DNA from: Meghimatium bilineatum
Lineage: Eukaryota > Mollusca > Gastropoda > Stylommatophora > Philomycidae
DNA length: 64,000 bases
Assembly (NCBI GenBank): GCA_034231615.1
Contig: CM067317.1
Coordinates: 13,061,316 to 13,125,315, forward strand
Reading direction: 5' to 3'
The notes under the pieces were generated by a model that was not told where the DNA came from, made no database searches, and saw only the letters and a list, made by a program, of their open reading frames with translations. A program made the position numbers and the translations under genes. Of the stretch, positions 8,236-47,882 are shown piece after piece; positions within the stretch are counted from its first letter, which is position 1; the number at the start of each line of letters is the position of its first letter.

Positions 8236-8724
8236 GTCTCAAATTCCTGCATTTAATCAGGACATATTCCGGAGAACGGAATGAGATATCTTCATCTTCT
8301 TCTTCTGCGTTCGCTCTAAAACTCCTGCAGATTAGCAGGATGTAGACCGGAGAACAGAATGCGTTGTGTCATGGTTTACAGCATTGCTGCGATATCTGCA
8401 CCTTTCGGCCTGAGACAGCCAGCTCCATCCCATAACCTCCTTAGTCGCCTTTTACGACATGCGTGGAAGGTAAACAGTGTTGCTATTCGTTGCTCCCCTT
8501 TCGGGCCCCACCAACACATGGGCATGGAATGAGATATGTAATGATTTAAAGCTTAGCTGCGATATCTGCTCATTTGGAGCTGACACAGCTGAGGTCATCA
8601 TGTGTTCTGGGCCACTTTCGCCGTCTCTAGGATGTGACAACTAACACAGCAAATTCTCATTATGAGTGCAGATATCAGTGTCCTTATTCTTGCTCACCTT
8701 GTGGGTCCCTGCATTATACGGGCG
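8236..8724 (-). mobile_element. Older SINE-A copy, split by a younger SINE-A
   Basis: The flanks 8236-8289 and 8538-8724 together read as one diverged minus-strand SINE-A. The left part has AATCAGGACATATTCCGGAG, and the right part has TTAGCTGCGATATCTGC and ends in CTCACCTTGTGGGTCCCTGC. It is interrupted at the GGAATGAGATAT position by the insertion at 8290-8525. Confidence 0.8.
8290..8525 (-). mobile_element. SINE-A, nested insertion with 12-bp target duplication
   Basis: A well-preserved minus-strand SINE-A runs from its TTCTTCTTCTGCGTTC tail end to the GGGCCCCACCAACACATGGG head end. It is bracketed by an exact 12-bp direct repeat, GGAATGAGATAT, at 8278-8289 and 8526-8537. The target was itself a SINE-A copy. 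At about 236 bp it is shorter than the 283-bp copy at 47451; it lacks the segment around the AGTGACCC motif. Confidence 0.9.
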
Positions 8725-11854: not shown

Positions 11855-12245
11855 AAGTTAACTGCTTCTTTTGAAATGAAATGCTACAGAAGGATTTGGA
11901 GAATAACATGGACAGTCGTCGTGTATTGACGGGCCCGAAAGGGGAGCAAAGAATAACAACACTGTTTACCTTCCATGCATGTCGTAAGAGGCGACTAAGG
12001 AGGTTATGAGATGGAGCTGGCTATCCCATATAGGGCCAGTGACCCAAAGCCATGCTGAAGTCGGATGTGTCGTGTTGAAAGGCGCATATATCGCAGCAAT
12101 GCTGTAAACCATGACACAACGCATTTCGTTCTCCGGACTACATCCTGCTAATCTGCAGGAGTTTAAGAACGAACGCACAAGAAGAAGAAGAAGATGGACA
12201 GCGAACGAGACGAATGAAGGCGTGTTGGAATCATTGAAAGTGCCT
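11855..12245 (+). pseudogene. LINE reverse transcriptase fragment split by SINE-A
   Basis: Left of the SINE the reading is LTASFEMKCYRRIWRITWT, and right of it is TANETNEGVLESLKVPL. Joined, they follow the LINE C-terminal segment in which a KCYRRILRISWT motif leads to EVLE.L. The same segment at 15640-15740 and 13375-13635 is uninterrupted. The SINE therefore entered an existing LINE fragment. Confidence 0.85.
11919..12193 (+). mobile_element. SINE-A inserted in a LINE fragment
   Basis: Full + strand SINE-A from TGACGGGCCCGAAAGGGGAG through GTCGTAAGAGGCGACTAAGG to GAACGAACGCACAAGAAGAA. The flanks share ATGGACAG (11908-11915 and 12194-12201), a short target duplication that also reads as part of the LINE codons for TWT. 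Confidence 0.88.
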
Positions 12246-23740: not shown

Positions 23741-25145
23741 CAATTTGGTTTCAGTAAAGTCATGAGATGCACAGATGCAATTTTTGCGCAACGTCAACTC
23801 AGCGAAAAGACATTTGATATTGTGTTTGTGAAAACAACATTTGACAGAGTTGACGGGGTTAAATTGTGGCTAATATTGGAAGACTATGGAATACAGGAAC
23901 AATTATTAGAAAACATAAGAGATTTATACAAAATCTGCCAAAGTATAATCAGAACTATTGGAAGACACACCAGACCCACTTGAAATAAAAACATGCTTCA
24001 GACAAGTCAGCGTACTATCACTTCTGTTCGACACATGCATGGACATGATAAATAAATTAACAGTCTAAATAAACGAATCCACCCTTGCAAATACAATCAA
24101 ATGAAGAACACAGCTCAATAAAAGAACTGCTATTTTCATAGGATCAATGTTTAATATAAGGATTTAAGATGAATGACTGCGGCACACACACCTGATCTAT
24201 ACCACCTGGGAACAACACAACATGAAACTAAACACATCTAAAACAGAGACTATGAAGTTAAAGCAGAACACCAGGTCAGTTAAATGTATCTGTCAATTGT
24301 ACAGAAGTAAAGCAGGTCTCAGTTCTAATATTTAGGAATCGTCTTTACAATGCATGCAAATTTGATAGAGAGTTCGAAACAAGATGTGAGAAAGTCCTTG
24401 CTATGACTTAGCAGCTGATGCTAATACTGAAACACCCAACTATCTGCAGGCTATAAAATGACGATTCTTCTTCGTTCGTTTTCAAACTCCTGCAGATTAG
24501 CAGGATGTAGTCCGGAGAACTGAATGAGTTGTGTCATCGTTTACAGCATTGCTGCGATATATGCGCATTTCGGCCTGACACATCCGACTTCAGCATGGCT
24601 TTGGGTCACTGACCTTATATGGGATGGGACAGCCAACTCTATCCCATAACCTCCTTTGTCGTCTCTTGCGACGTGCATGGACGGTAAACAGTGTTGTTGT
24701 TCTTTGCTCCCCATTCGGGCCCCGGCAACACACGGGCGAAATGACCATTGATGAACAGTATTTTTACACCAACTCTGTGTTACCAATGTCAAACATGGCA
24801 TTTGAGAAACACATTAGCGAAAAATACTACAGTATGTGAATTGAGATGCTTGAGGAAAGCTATAAATGTCACGAGGAATCGGCAAAGAAATGAAGATATC
24901 AGGAAAGCAATAAAAACAATCTCTAGTCAAGACTACATTGATAGACAGCAAACCAGGTGGTTTGGTCACGTCATGAGAATGGATCCACTGCAACCAGCCC
25001 TTCATGCATACAACAACATAAATATCGGGCTACACGGCAGGAGGAAGACCAAGAACTAGATGGGTAGAGACAATCAAAGAAACCTTAAAGAGACACGGGT
25101 TGACTATGCCAAGTGCGACCAAAATGGCGAAAGACAGACAACTAT
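23741..25145 (+). pseudogene. LINE reverse transcriptase, decayed and split by SINE-A
   Basis: QFGFSKVMRCTDAIFAQRQL opens the fragment at 23741, and FDIVFVKTTFDRVDGVKLWL follows (palm motif A region, with the usual D/K/AFD altered). Diverged sequence runs to 24455. After the SINE, TNSVLPMSNMAFE resembles the LP.L.YG.E.W motif, and NEDIRKAIKTISSQDYIDRQ, QTRWFGHVMRMD and GRRKTK form the C-terminal tail to about 25145. No YADD box is found, and many frame changes are present. Confidence 0.8.
24467..24738 (-). mobile_element. SINE-A inserted in the LINE, with 11-bp target duplication
   Basis: Full minus-strand copy from the tail (TTCTTCGTTCGTTTTCAAAC) to the head (GGGCCCCGGCAACACACGGG). Flanking repeats AAATGACGATT (24456-24466) and AAATGACCATT (24739-24749) match at 10 of 11 positions. 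Confidence 0.9.
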
Positions 25146-40549: not shown

Positions 40550-42105
40550 CCCTGTTCTAACATACATATTCTAGCATCCCTGTTCTAACATCCATATTCT
40601 AGCATCCCTGTTCTAACAAAAATGTTCTAGAATCCCTGTTCTAACATCCATATTTTAGCATCCCTGTTCTAACATCCATATTCTAGCATCCCTGTTCTAA
40701 CATCCATATTTTAGCATCCCTGTTCTAACATCCATATTTTAGCATCCCTGTTCTAACATCCATATTTTAGCATCCCTGTTCTAACATCCATATTTTAGCA
40801 TCCCTGTTCTAACATCCATATTTTAGCATCCCTGTTCTAACATCCATATTTTAGCATCCCTGTTCTAGCATCCCTGATCTAACATCCATGCTCTAGCATC
40901 CCTGTTCTAACATCCATGTTCTAGCATCCCTGTTCTAGCATCCCTGTTCTAACATCCATGCTCTAGCATCCCTGTTCTAACATCCATGTTCTAGCATCCC
41001 TGTTCTAACATCCCTGTTCTAGCATCCCTGTTCTAACATCCATGTTCTAGCATCCCTGTTCTAACATCCATATTCTAGCATCCCTGTTCTAACATCCATA
41101 TTTTAGCATCCCTGTTCTAACATCCATGCTCTAGCATCCCTGTTCTAACATCCATGTTCTAGCATCCCTGTTCTAACATCCATATTTTAGCATCCCTGTT
41201 CTAACATCCATGTTCTAGCATTCCTGTTCTAACATCCATATTTTAGCATCCCTGTTCTAGCATCCCTGTTCTAACATCCATATTTTAGCATCCCTATTCT
41301 AGCATCCCTGTTCTAACATCCAAGCTCTAGCATCCCTGTTCTAACATCCATATTTTAGCATCCCTATTCTAGCATCCCTGTTCTAACATCCAAGCTCTAG
41401 CATCCCTGTTCTAGCATCCCTGTTCTAACATCCATATTTTAGCATCCCTATTCTAGCATCCCTGTTCTAACATCCAAGCTCTAGCATCCCTGTTCTAACA
41501 TCCATATTCTAGCATCCCTGTTCTAACATCCATATGTTAGCATCCCTGTTCTAACATCCATGTTCTAGCATCCCTCTTCTAGCATCCCTGTTCTAACATC
41601 CATGCTCTAGCATCCCTGTTCTAACATCCATGTTCTAGCATCCCTGTTCTAACATCCATGTTCTAGCATCCCTGTTCTAACATCCATATTCTAGCATCCC
41701 TGTTCTAACATCCATATTTTAGCATCCCTGTTCTAACATCCATGCTCTAGCATCCCTGTTCTAACATCCATGTTCTAGCATCCCTGTTCTAACATCCATA
41801 TTTTAGCATCCCTGTTCTAACATCCATGTTCTAGCATTCCTGTTCTAACATCCATATTTTAGCATCCCTGTTCTAGCATCCCTGTTCTAACATCCATATT
41901 TTAGCATCCCTATTCTAGCATCCCTGTTCTAACATCCAAGCTCTAGCATCCCTGTTCTAACATCCATATTTTAGCATCCCTATTCTAGCATCCCTGTTCT
42001 AACATCCATATTCTAGCATCCCTGTTCTAACATCCATATGTTAGCATCCCTGTTCTAACATCCCTGTTCTAACATCCATATTTTAGCATCCCTGTTCTAA
42101 CATCC
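40550..42105. repeat. 28-bp array with 616-bp higher order
   Basis: Units of TGTTCTAACATCCATATTTT plus AGCATCCC, with variants (ATGCTC, ATGTTC, AAGCTC, ATATTC) and some half units. The marker GCATTCC occurs at 41218-41224 and again at 41834-41840, and the flanking variant order is the same in both places. The offset of 616 bp equals 22 units, so a block was duplicated. The TGTTCTA... halves contain about 14-bp sub-repeats. Confidence 0.97.
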
Positions 42106-43279: not shown

Positions 43280-43680
43280 TCTTCAGTCCTCCTGCTTTGC
43301 GGGAACCAGTCTATAGATCTCCATATAACAACCTCTTTGGTAAACGATGATCTTTCATGCGGACCATGTGTCCTGTCCAGCCTGTCTGCGCCTTCATCAA
43401 CATTGTATGTATGCTTATAGACTTAGATTTCATCAGTACTTCACTGTCTGGTATTTTATCCCACCAATGGATATTGGGTATCTTACGAAAGCAGCTTAGG
43501 TGGAAGTGGTCGAGTATTCTAGCGTGTCTGGCACACGCTGCCCATGTTTCAAGGGCATAAAAGAATGATGATAATACTGCTATTTGGTAAACTATTATTT
43601 TGATGGTAGTTGTTATTCCCCTTCTTTCCCATGCGTGTCTTCGGTCTTCCATGTGTGGCACCAGATTTCGCTATGTTGTT
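43280..43680 (-). pseudogene. LINE reverse transcriptase C-terminal fragment
   Basis: An open frame of 116 codons (43311-43661) reads MPHMEDRRHAWERRGITTTI, then VLSSFFYALETWAACARHAR, ILDHFHLSCFRKIPNIHWWD, KIPDSEVL, WTGHMVRMKDHRLPKRLLYG. This is the thumb and tail of a LINE RT family whose tail has RMPDHRLPK.LLYGEL. It is still free of stops here, so it is younger than most LINE remnants in the window, but only the 3' end is present. Confidence 0.88.
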
Positions 43681-43794
43681 TACCTCAGTGTTGATGTTTA
43701 CATCTTGTGAGAGAGCTACAGAGCTAGGTGAAATATGATTACTGGTTTCTCATGTGTACAGTCACAGCTGAATATCGATGATATGTATTATGAA

Positions 43795-43999
43795 GGAAAG
43801 TAGTACTTTCAGTATACCCACTATTAGTATGACATTGATGGTGATTCCGATGACCAGGATAAGGAAATGACTAAAGACTCGGTCTACAAATGTCCGTGTT
43901 TATATTGATTTTATAAGTATACAAAGAGACAGTCGGAATGTCAATTTACACAGTTCTGAAGCCTATGGCGAAGTCTGTGCGTAAGAGAGTTACTTTTTT
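43795..43999 (+). mobile_element. SINE-D body, 5'-truncated
   Basis: GTAGTACTTTCAGTATACCC, ACTATTAGTATGACATTGAT, GACCAGGATAAGGAAATGAC, CTCGGTCTACAAATGTCCGT, GACAGTCGGAATGTC and GTAAGAGAGTTACTTTT match the split copy at 45327-46395 in order. The tRNA-like head is missing. Confidence 0.8.
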
Positions 44000-44504
44000 T
44001 TTGCGTTCCTGGACACGCGGGTGTTAGGGAAAATGAAAGAACAGACAGACCTACCGGCGTATACACAGTGACAAGTCTAAGTTTAGTCGCTCAATAATTA
44101 TACTTGATTATTGTGCTGTGGCACACACCGGTTGCGAAGCACTGCTATACCATGCTTTGAATATTATTGTGTATATTTGGAATATCACCATTTAAAATTG
44201 ATTCTTTTGTTATAATAAACACATGTTTGATGTAGAATCTTCATTACTCATTTGCTATGATGGTTTCTGTGCTGAAGAATGAAGACTGTTCTTACCGTCC
44301 TCACAAGACCTTACGGTAATTAGTTGCTTTGTCCAGTGAAGTACAAGAATCGACATGTTGCTGAATGGGAATGTGGTGCTTGTACTAGATTTTTTTGTTT
44401 ATAAATGGAATACTCAAAGAGAATGTCGCTAGCAGTACGCCAGCCGTCTTTACTTTTCATAGAAAATCCGGTACCTAATTCCTTAGCCTAGATCGATCTA
44501 ACAG

Positions 44505-44735
44505 TAATTTCTGGTCTAAATACTTTCCAGTTGTACTGGAAGTTTGAAATCGATCTAACAGTAATTTCTGGTCTAAATACTTTCCAGTCGTACTGGAAGT
44601 TTGAAATCGATCTAACAGTAATTTCTGGTTTAAATACTTTCCAGTTGTACTGGAAGTTTGAAATCGATCTAGCAGTAATTTCTGGTCTAAATACTTTCCA
44701 GTTGTACTGGAAGTTTGAAACTGGATGATAATCTG
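44505..44735. repeat. 57-bp repeat, four copies
   Basis: Unit with TCTAACAGTAATTTCTGGTC, then AAATACTTTCCAGTTGTACT and GGAAGTTTGAAATCGA. The 57-bp length keeps frames open on both strands with a 19-residue cycle. Confidence 0.95.
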
Positions 44736-45054
44736 ACTAGAAAGCCAGTGCACTGGCCATTGACAGAAAACTGCTCCTGGTTGTGTCCCGTGTTATATAT
44801 TTTCTAGACATTGACATAATATATTATAACATATTCTTCAGTGTCTACCAGCTCATGTACCACTATGAGAACTGGCATTCAGTCAAATGAATGCAGAAAA
44901 CCTACACGTAACCCTTTAATGTTAACATTTCCATTCAAACTAAATGTTCAGTTAACATTTGAGTACATTTCAGTATACCTGCCTAGACTAACTATGTCAC
45001 TTTCATATTACTAAATATATTTTGAGTAGATTCTATGATGTTTAACTTCTACAG

Positions 45055-45243
45055 TTTAAGATAACCGATGACTACTGCGGCGAGGCTGACTCCAACCAAC
45101 CAATTGCTGGGACTATTCCTATACAGAGTCAACCAGTTCTTACTTTCCCACCAGACTCATCCAACCTGAACGCCATACATGTGACTACAACTCAGGATTA
45201 TACTGTAGCGTTTGTCGGGACCAAGGATGGAAAGCTTCTCAAG
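45055..45243 (+). CDS. Plexin exon: late Sema blades
   Basis: 63 codons, phase 0 on both sides, between TTCTACAG and AAG/GTATGA. It reads FKITDDYCGEADSNQPIAGT, then NAIHVTTTQDYTVAFVGTKD and GKLLK. In plexins the DDNFCGLD...PLGG segment and the FVGTKSGKLKK strand stand at exactly this place near the end of the Sema domain. Confidence 0.94.
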
Positions 45244-45326
45244 GTATGAAGTTATAGGCTATATAATCTGGTATATACTCAGCTTGTTTAATGTTTACTT
45301 TAGTCTCATAAAGAGTCCGATCATGA

Positions 45327-46252
45327 GGAGTGCGGTGGTCTAGTTGATAGTGATATTACTTACTATCGCCGGTTAGAGAGTGCCTGGTTCGAACCCACAT
45401 CGGGTTAAAACAATCCGGGTCATGAGGTCTGGTAGTACTTTCAGTAAATCCACTATTAGTATGACAATGGAGGTGATGCCGGGGACCAGGATAAGGAAAT
45501 GACTAAACAGTCGGTCTACAAATATCTGTGTTTGTTTAGTAGGGGTTTATGCCTCATATGGTCGAGGCCCGTCTCTTTCAACCTAGGACTGGTGTCCATA
45601 GTGGTTATATCGAGGCGGTTGGGGACCTGTGGTATTTGTGGCTTGTTTGCCTGGTTGTTGCTAGGATGTGGCTCTGTTAGCCGGGTTCGCTGTAAGGCCT
45701 CCTAGCTTCAGTCCTTGTATGGACTATGTTGTGGCTCTGCCTGTCTCTGGTACGATGAGATTATAAGGTGATAGTCCTAAGAAGGACTTTGTGGTGATTG
45801 GTTGGAGCTCTTTCTTCTATTCGGAGCTATTTGCTGTGTTGTTCCTTCGCTGTGTCGATCTGGATTATAAGGTGGTAGTCCTTAAAAGGACTGTGTGCAG
45901 GATTGGTTGGAGCGCTTTCTTCTGCTTCTTTCCTGTGCTGTTCATTCGCTTAGTGGGTCTGGACCACATGTTGTCTTTAGTTGTCTATGCTGACATTGTT
46001 TGTGCAGTATCGGCTGCTGATTGTACCTGTGGAGAAAGATTTTTTTTAAATTATTATTATTATTATTATTATTATTATTTTTTAATTTTTTTTTTTTTTT
46101 TTTTTAAATTATGAAATGAAGTTTATAGCCCTTATAAGGACTTTATTCTGTCTGGTTGGTGCTTTTTGTTGTGTCATCTCTGTGTTGTACCTGTCTGGGT
46201 TGGCTGTTTATTATATGTTAAGTTGCTTGTCTGTTGGTGTTACCTGTGGATA

Positions 46253-46283
<31 letters not shown>

Positions 46284-46395
46284 TCTGTGTTCAGATTTAT
46301 TTTATACGTATGCAAAGACAGAGACAGTCGGAATATCTATTTACACAGAGCTGGAGCATATGACGATGTCTCTGCATAAGAGAGTTACTTTTATT
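45327..46395 (+). mobile_element. SINE-D, tRNA-headed, split by an insertion
   Basis: The head reads TGCGGTGGTCTAGTTGATAG, later TGCCTGGTTCGAACCCACAT, with good A-box and B-box (GGTTCGAACCC) matches of a tRNA-Glu/Asp type. The body (GTAGTACTTTCAGTAAATCC through GACCAGGATAAGGAAATGAC) stops at 45532 and resumes at 46276 with TACAAATATCTGTGTTCAGA, then GACAGTCGGAATATC and GTAAGAGAGTTACTTTT-like sequence. The middle, 45533-46275, is a separate element. Confidence 0.85.
45533..46275 (+). mobile_element. T-tailed two-module insertion with 16-bp target duplication
   Basis: 743 bp bracketed by an exact 16-bp direct repeat, TACAAATATCTGTGTT (45517-45532 and 46276-46291). The interior is built of related segments: AGGACTTTGTGGTGATTGGT with GGAGCTCTTTCTTCT, then AGGACTGTGTGCAGGATTGG with GGAGCGCTTTCTTCT, then AGGACTTTATTCTGTCTGGT. 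Two of them run to a TACCTGTGGA motif followed by a long T tract, one after a (TTA)n stretch at 46052-46110 and one at the very end (46252-46276). Open frames encode no recognised domain. Retroposition is suggested by the duplication, yet the tail is T and not A on the strand I call sense. Confidence 0.75.
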
Positions 46396-46544
46396 TGTGT
46401 GCCTACTGCCTCTCTCCTTAGTCGTGTAAGTTATTTAACTCCAGTGTTAATTGTCTGCGTCCAGTGTTGATTGTCTCCGTAGTCGTATAAGTTATTCAAC
46501 TACTCATAAGGAAGGATTCATGTTTTGTATTGTTGAAAATACCC

Positions 46545-46660
46545 GGGGTAGCGACAGCTCAGTTGTTAATGAACTGACTTTCTGTTCGGGTGATCTGAAG
46601 TTCAATTTTCAGTTCAACTGAAAGTATTTTAAAATCCCCAATGGCTCCTAAATCGATCTA
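46545..46660 (+). mobile_element. tRNA-like SINE head, fragment
   Basis: GCGACAGCTCAGTTGTTAAT and GATCTGAAGTTCAATTTTCA resemble A and B boxes spaced as in a tRNA-derived SINE. No body was matched. Confidence 0.35.
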
Positions 46661-46984
46661 ACCTAAGGATAATAAGAATCGTCTCTTCTAGGGAAGTGTA
46701 GAGGGAGACTTGTTGTTGACCGCATCATCCGTCTGTATGATCCGTTAGTTCAAAGAAATATATTTGCCTAACACTGCATTATATATATATATATATACCC
46801 CAGTGACGTGGAAGAGGGATAATGACTTTACTATTGTTGGAAATACAAGAATCGTGGGATGGAGATTGTTGCAGAATGAGCAAAGCACCTCACCAAAACA
46901 TGTCAGGGAACAGTTCATCAGCACTGAGACTTGGCACCACCAGGCACTCTAACGTATGTGTATTATGCTACGATTACGATAACG

Positions 46985-47397
46985 CAGGGGTGGGGAACCT
47001 TTTTGTCAGAGAGAGCCATGGACACCACATATTTTGAAAAGTAATTCTATGAGAGCCATACATTATGTTTAAAACTAAATATTCAAGTATATGTGTGCAT
47101 TTTGTGTAATTTCAACACTAAAAGTACAAGAATTATGTCTCTGAATTCATTTAATAACATTGTTATGTTGTTGCTAATTAATAATAAGTATTTCTTACCA
47201 TTAACGCGACTTGTAGTAGATGCTGAGCTGTAGTAGACTTTAGCTCATTTGTAGAATTAAATATTGATATGCAATTAGTTTGTAGATCAAATGAGTCTTA
47301 AGAAACATTTTTTTATAATCGAACATTTGTCTGCGAGCCAGATGCAACCATCATTAGAGCCATATCTGGCTCGCGAGCCATGGGTTCCCGACCCCTG
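46985..47397. mobile_element. hAT-type non-autonomous element with 8-bp target duplication
   Basis: 413 bp starting CAGGGGTGGGGAACC and ending GGTTCCCGACCCCTG, inverted repeats of 15 bp with one mismatch. The exact 8-bp duplication CGATAACG stands at 46977-46984 and 47398-47405. Eight-base duplications and CAGGGGT-type ends are typical of hAT elements. Inner copies of AGAGCCAT/GAGCCATG extend the terminal symmetry. There is no coding capacity. Confidence 0.93.
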
Positions 47398-47450: not shown

Positions 47451-47733
47451 CCGCCCGTGTGTTGCCGGGGCCCGAAAGGGGAGCAAAGAATAGCAACACT
47501 GTTTACCTTCTACGCATGTCATAAAAAGCGACTAAGGAGGTTATGGGATGGAGTTGGCTGTCCCATCCCATATAGGGTCAGTGACCCAAAGCCACGCTGA
47601 AGTCGAATGTGTCATGCTGAAAGGCGCAGATATCGCAGCAATGCTGTAAACCATGACACAACGCATTCCGTTGTCGGGACTACATCCTGCTAATCTGCAG
47701 TAGTTTGAGAACGAACGCATAAGAAGAAGAAGA
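47451..47733 (+). mobile_element. SINE-A, full-length reference copy
   Basis: 283 bp from CCGCCCGTGTGTTGCCGGGG through GGGGAGCAAAGAATAGCAAC, AAAGCGACTAAGGAGGTTAT, GTCAGTGACCCAAAGCCACG and CTACATCCTGCTAATCTGCA to AACGAACGCATAAGAAGAAG. The flanking repeats ATATTCCTTGTA (47439-47450) and ATATTCCATGTA (47734-47745) agree at 11 of 12 positions. At least eight other copies lie in this window. I see no clear RNA polymerase III boxes in the head. Confidence 0.92.
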
Positions 47734-47882
47734 ATATTCCATGTACAAATTTGATTATATATATATATATATATATATAAACCATAGTTTCGGTAATGTT
47801 TATTCGATTACTCACACAATTGTTTCAATAGAAGATATATAATTGTTGCATATTGAACAGCTAATGTGTTGTATTGTTACAG

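Follow-up and report, generated by a model that had tools for sequence, protein, structure and literature searches.

An RNase H domain in ORF2 marks LINEs (non-LTR retrotransposons) of the I group and the Nimb clade. Nimb and gastropod LINEs are treated in PMC4245944 and PMC11203168; the available sections of the former describe Nimb LINEs with an ORF1/ORF2 layout and common 5′ truncation, and for the zebrafish element Nimb-2_DR (I group, Nimb clade) they give target-site duplications mostly of 10-15 bp, with a peak at about 12-13 bp (PMC4245944). For LINEs of the stringent type, the accessible portion of PMC5135761 describes a reverse transcriptase (RT) that recognises a 3′ stem-loop. The insert analysed here lies in a window of 64,000 nucleotides (C20:13061316-13125315) of the 1.61-Gb genome of Meghimatium bilineatum, and it is almost certainly a 5′-truncated, minus-strand copy of a LINE of about 8.4 kb, made by target-primed reverse transcription (TPRT).

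The insert measures 743 bp and is bounded by an exact 16-bp direct repeat, as the initial annotation had stated (Table 1). Its description of a retroposon-like insertion that splits a SINE likewise stands: joined in silico, the two flanks align at 84.5% over 206 nt to a relative at 43800-44001. This relative, previously taken for an intact SINE at 43795-43999, lacks the tRNA-like head and is therefore not intact. In the host SINE, the head was judged by eye from box-A/box-B-like motifs; ARAGORN called no tRNA in the whole window, and a search of 43500-47200 against Rfam was negative at gathering scores. The related internal segments of the insert were also recovered, namely three 52-nt segments (the second and third 63% and 75% identical to the first) and a 61-nt pair with 86.9% identity.

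Upstream of the insert, on the strand opposite to the LINE, positions 45058-45246 encode a partial Sema domain (7.5e-8) with plexin A as closest PDB match (4.5e-8), and GTATG follows directly. Judged from this exon-like stretch, the insert seems to lie inside a plexin intron, antisense to the gene. The window also holds tandem arrays at 44492-44720 (57-bp unit, 4 copies) and 40550-42105 (28-bp unit, about 56 copies), as well as an interspersed repeat unrelated to the LINE (12077-12192, 47608-47737, 8288-8417 and 24465-24582), which is present at 84-87% within locus L009 (3339-3468) as well.

Table 1. Features of the insert and its host SINE (window positions)
Feature	Position	Strand	Sequence or basis
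5′ part of host SINE, tRNA-like head	45327..45532	+	alignment; head by eye
3′ part of host SINE, opening with second duplication copy	46276..46396	+	
Target-site duplication at LINE 3′ end	45517..45532	+	TACAAATATCTGTGTT, exact
Target-site duplication at truncated 5′ end	46276..46291	+	TACAAATATCTGTGTT, exact
5′-truncated LINE copy, last ~740 nt of 3′ UTR	45533..46275	-	copy comparison
3′ tail TACTAAACA; (AAAC)n in other copies	45533..45541	-	
Last hairpin before tail (GCCTC...GAGGC)	45551..45568	-	predicted
3′-terminal stem (CCGCCTC...GAGGCGG), one pair broken in window copy	45569..45618	-	predicted
Stem edge (-77), start point of many other copies	45618	-	truncation positions
Hairpin AGTCCATACAAGGACT	45710..45725	-	exact pattern
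Hairpin AGTCCTTCTTAGGACT	45773..45788	-	exact pattern
Hairpin AGTCCTTTTAAGGACT	45877..45892	-	exact pattern
Hairpin AGTCCTTATAAGGGCT	46127..46142	-	exact pattern
Internal A-rich linker; (ATT)n on + strand	46040..46109	-	
Second A-rich linker, truncation site of window copy (the "T tail")	46253..46275	-	

A genome search with the insert yielded 1073 first-look candidates, 40 of which were scored, namely the window and 39 places elsewhere at 87-98%. Ends were compared among L001-L008 and 20 further loci taken with upstream DNA (L005/L008 and L009/L010 denote the same copies). The left end is common to the copies. Its minus-strand sequence is ...GAGGCATAAACCCCTACTAAACAAAC(AAAC)n (motif ...CATAAACCCCTACTAAACAAAC(AAAC)n), followed by the duplication; the exact 3′ motif is absent from L024, and a few copies carry the variants TACTTAAC or TAACAAAC. 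The T-rich end, in contrast, differs among copies, several of which run on past the T run. With a constant left end and a variable T-rich end, the element therefore reads on the minus strand, and not on the plus strand that had been taken as sense. The T-rich end is a 5′ truncation within an internal A-rich linker rather than a tail. Truncation within the linker is shared by the window copy, L004, L006 and L026, a set that was chosen by similarity and is thus not unbiased.

In L014, L016, L018 and L027, the sequence common to the copies continues unbroken into ORF2. The coding part of L016 matches the Pfam families Exo_endo_phos_2 (6.1e-26), RVT_1 (8.2e-39) and RNase_H (1.9e-18), and the RT is closest in PDB to L1 ORF2p, with the first five of 10 sequences at 2e-17 to 5e-16. 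By eye, a C-terminal Cys-Cys-His-Cys motif follows the ORF2 domains, and L027 and L032 feature an upstream ORF1 with Cys/His (CCHC) knuckles; ORF1 pieces compared with Pfam matched no family above the cut-off. L014 and L027, which could be followed as far as the 5′ end, start at the identical base (TCGGTAACAATATTTGG, 8435 and 8370 nt before the end) and show no convincing duplication. Stops and frame breaks occur in the LINE copies. Combining an endonuclease and an RT in ORF2 with a common 3′ end and variable 5′ truncation, and with no LTRs noticed, the family is, as far as could be tested, a new LINE of a known kind, and it is young; given its RNase H domain, it is perhaps a member of the I group and perhaps Nimb-like. 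Flanking frames in L031 (upstream of L014) and in the 5′ flank of L018 appear Penelope-like by eye.

Duplications were analysed in 23 copies whose 3′ end could be recognised and whose 5′ start could be estimated; the start of L009 was placed before an inverted segment, L024 was dropped, and L011, L014, L016 and L027 were left out. A duplication of 10-17 bp is present in 18 of the 23 (12 or 13 bp in 10 of them), compared to 2 of 529 mismatched controls, in which the 3′ flank and the 5′ zone came from different copies. None was found in L002, L003, L018 and L019, and L010 has one of 8 bp only. L003 has an internal gap of about 4 kb that brings ORF2 next to the 3′ part of the UTR, and in L009 some 209 nt of ORF2 are inverted right after a 17-bp duplication, a twin-priming-like 5′ inversion. 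Together, the common 3′ end, the variable 5′ ends, the duplications and the coding content of longer copies identify the insert as an ordinary 5′-truncated LINE copy. The biochemical steps that we infer for its TPRT would begin with the LINE endonuclease nicking the host SINE, after which the freed target end (...TGTGTT) would act as primer on the LINE RNA, at its (AAAC)n tail. Copying by the RT would proceed from the tail through the terminal stem and further into the 3′ UTR and would end inside the A-rich linker, and joining of the ends would leave the 16-bp duplication.

A retroposon on the plus strand, either T-tailed or dimeric, as the initial annotation had envisaged, would suit the T run that adjoins the duplication and the two stretches of the insert that end in TACCTGTGGA, each followed by a T-rich run. 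These two "modules" do exist, but not as separate units: longer copies carry both in order, with further sequence beyond, and they are successive parts of a single LINE 3′ UTR rather than a head-to-tail dimer. Nor is T the natural 3′ tail, since it marks the variable end, opposite the constant one, and we regard such a retroposon as vanishingly unlikely. Alignment of the copies thus gave differing boundaries at the T end together with a LINE structure, and a layout once thought to lie outside known families leads, in the longer copies, into a LINE with endonuclease, RT and RNase H. Highly improbable, too, is a non-autonomous SVA-like composite of a VNTR and unique parts moved by a separate LINE. 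L009 and L010, at about 2.4 kb with the VNTR and without a coding frame of interest, have this appearance, yet the VNTR directly follows ORF2 in the four longer copies named above, and the 5′ ends of copies are not fixed. A SINE identity of the insert was rejected on its variable 5′ ends and the coding longer copies, and a Helitron identity on the target-site duplications, as Helitrons insert without them.

The 3′ UTR of this LINE is long. In L016, the ORF2 stop lies at sense position ~4230 and the 3′ end at ~7197, leaving about 3 kb, which comprises a VNTR (a 75-79-bp tandem array, seen upstream in L009 and L010), a tract of (AT)n or (AC)n and two A-rich linkers. It also includes four hairpins with the pattern AGTCC-N6-GGACT/GGGCT; by exact pattern, these are complete in most, not all, copies. 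Internal gaps recur in L083, L101, L114, L045, L053 and L091, where they lie around -281 and -324 in similar positions close to the 61-nt repeats. Searches of an open-access library showed no report of VNTR-bearing LINE 3′ UTRs or of stem-edge truncation, which is weak evidence of absence.

Compared with 20 shuffles for each strand, the 743-nt insert gave a folding z of -7.20 on the minus strand and -3.06 on the plus strand. For the last 96 nt of L016, the prediction is an outer stem of 7 bp plus inner stems, followed by a 5-bp hairpin and, last, the tail (z -4.81; antisense -1.77); for the 3′ end of the window copy, with one outer pair broken, z is -2.67. Stem pairs of the last hairpin are identical across 28 of 28 aligned copies. 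RNAalifold, applied to 28 copies with 97% mean column identity, found 0 of 77 pairs covarying, so that the terminal stem is a prediction from energy and conservation only.

Copies were then sampled independently of their length through an exact 27-mer of the 3′ hairpin, which occurs at 305 places in the genome (control 0). The sample consists of 100 listed places on contigs C1-C7, with 92 new copies (L033-L124) and 8 known loci, all of the latter longer than 380 nt. One quarter (25/100, or 25/92 new copies) start 76-81 nt before the 3′ end (76: 5, 77: 6, 78: 6, 79: 4, 80: 3, 81: 1), which is where the predicted outer stem has its 5′ edge, with -77 as its first paired base; some of the values at 79-81 are due to chance matches of one to three bases. 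A stricter pass over the 92 kept 56 truncations after exclusion of 24 copies that extend to the limit of the retrieved stretch and 12 with LINE sequence further upstream (in L050, a 15-nt match only). Here, 25 truncations fall at 75-81, 5 are shorter, none lies at 82-112 and 23 are spread over 82-350; about 0.6 would therefore be expected per 7 nt, and the Poisson value for 25 at 75-81 is ~1e-31 if an even spread is assumed.

Duplications of at least 10 bp accompany 20 of the 25 stem-edge copies, compared to 0 of 600 mismatched pairs; among other copies they are found in 21 of 42, a set that includes internal deletions. No 3′ flanks are alike among the 25, and only 3 of 300 pairs of 5′ flanks are, which indicates that these copies are mostly independent insertions. 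A second sample, the first 20 places of a stem-edge 29-mer list that are absent from the 27-mer list, is by design unable to show copies below 76 nt; six of its copies start at 76-79, and a duplication was found in three of the six. Genome-wide, with at most two mismatches allowed, 534 places match a 29-mer that lies immediately inside the stem edge and 414 match one immediately outside it, counts that agree with a step at the stem edge for words that may differ in conservation. The stem-edge starts suggest that structure sets a limit to the template, by a mechanism that we infer.

One possible mechanism, put forward tentatively, is 5′ decay of the LINE RNA up to the 3′-terminal stem or a protein bound to it, with the remnant serving as template. 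The pile-up of starts at the first paired base, the duplications around these copies and the recurrence in the second sample favour decay, but the predicted stem is without covariation support, and an RT boundary would produce identical ends, as would a cDNA end trimmed back at a DNA hairpin. That the RT itself stops, because it or an RNA-binding part of it holds the stem and so makes the 5′ edge the template boundary, matches the same end positions and is a rather unlikely alternative: simple stalling is expected at the near side of the stem, where 1 of 56 truncations lies (L078, -32), and an enzyme past a melted stem should not sense its far edge. Since a stalled RT should stop at the near side, the far-edge ends are in keeping with loss of the template up to the stem before it was copied. 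We consider it improbable that the stem-edge copies are a separate mini-SINE made from its own short RNA. They are numerous and uniform in length; however, their starts spread over 76-81, no head with a promoter was noticed in them, and the A and C subfamily alleles occur both in them (19 A, 2 C, 4 untyped) and in longer copies (46 A, 8 C, 7 untyped), the C alleles of the short copies being few. More broadly, we see an even chance that the 3′-terminal stem, perhaps protein-bound, is the unit left when the other RNA is lost or remains uncopied, in which case about a quarter of insertions would be a ~78-nt unit plus tail.

The family resembles Nimb LINEs, as the available sections of PMC4245944 present them, in its ORF1/ORF2 layout and common 5′ truncation, and its duplication sizes, which are as in Nimb-2_DR, fit an I-group LINE. 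It differs from the account in those sections by its ~3-kb 3′ UTR with VNTR and hairpins. With L1 it shares endonuclease and RT, signs of TPRT, duplications, 5′ truncation and a twin-priming-like inversion; unlike L1, it has an (AAAC)n tail instead of poly(A) and an RNase H domain, and the inversion is seen in one copy only. The predicted 3′-terminal stem and hairpin, with a short-repeat tail after them, would parallel stringent-type LINEs as outlined in the accessible portion of PMC5135761, whereas the copies described here also start at the stem edge.

Once the strand is reversed, the puzzle of the "T-tailed" layout resolves into an ordinary truncated LINE. The family to which it belongs combines a long, repeat-laden 3′ UTR with sharp truncation at a predicted stem, and its 305 exact 3′ ends offer many independent insertions for studying TPRT template starts and the origin of 5′ truncation. 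The family also bears on how SINEs could gain LINE tails: if the terminal stem is indeed the unit that is left, stem-only inserts would be a possible ready source of LINE-derived SINE tails.
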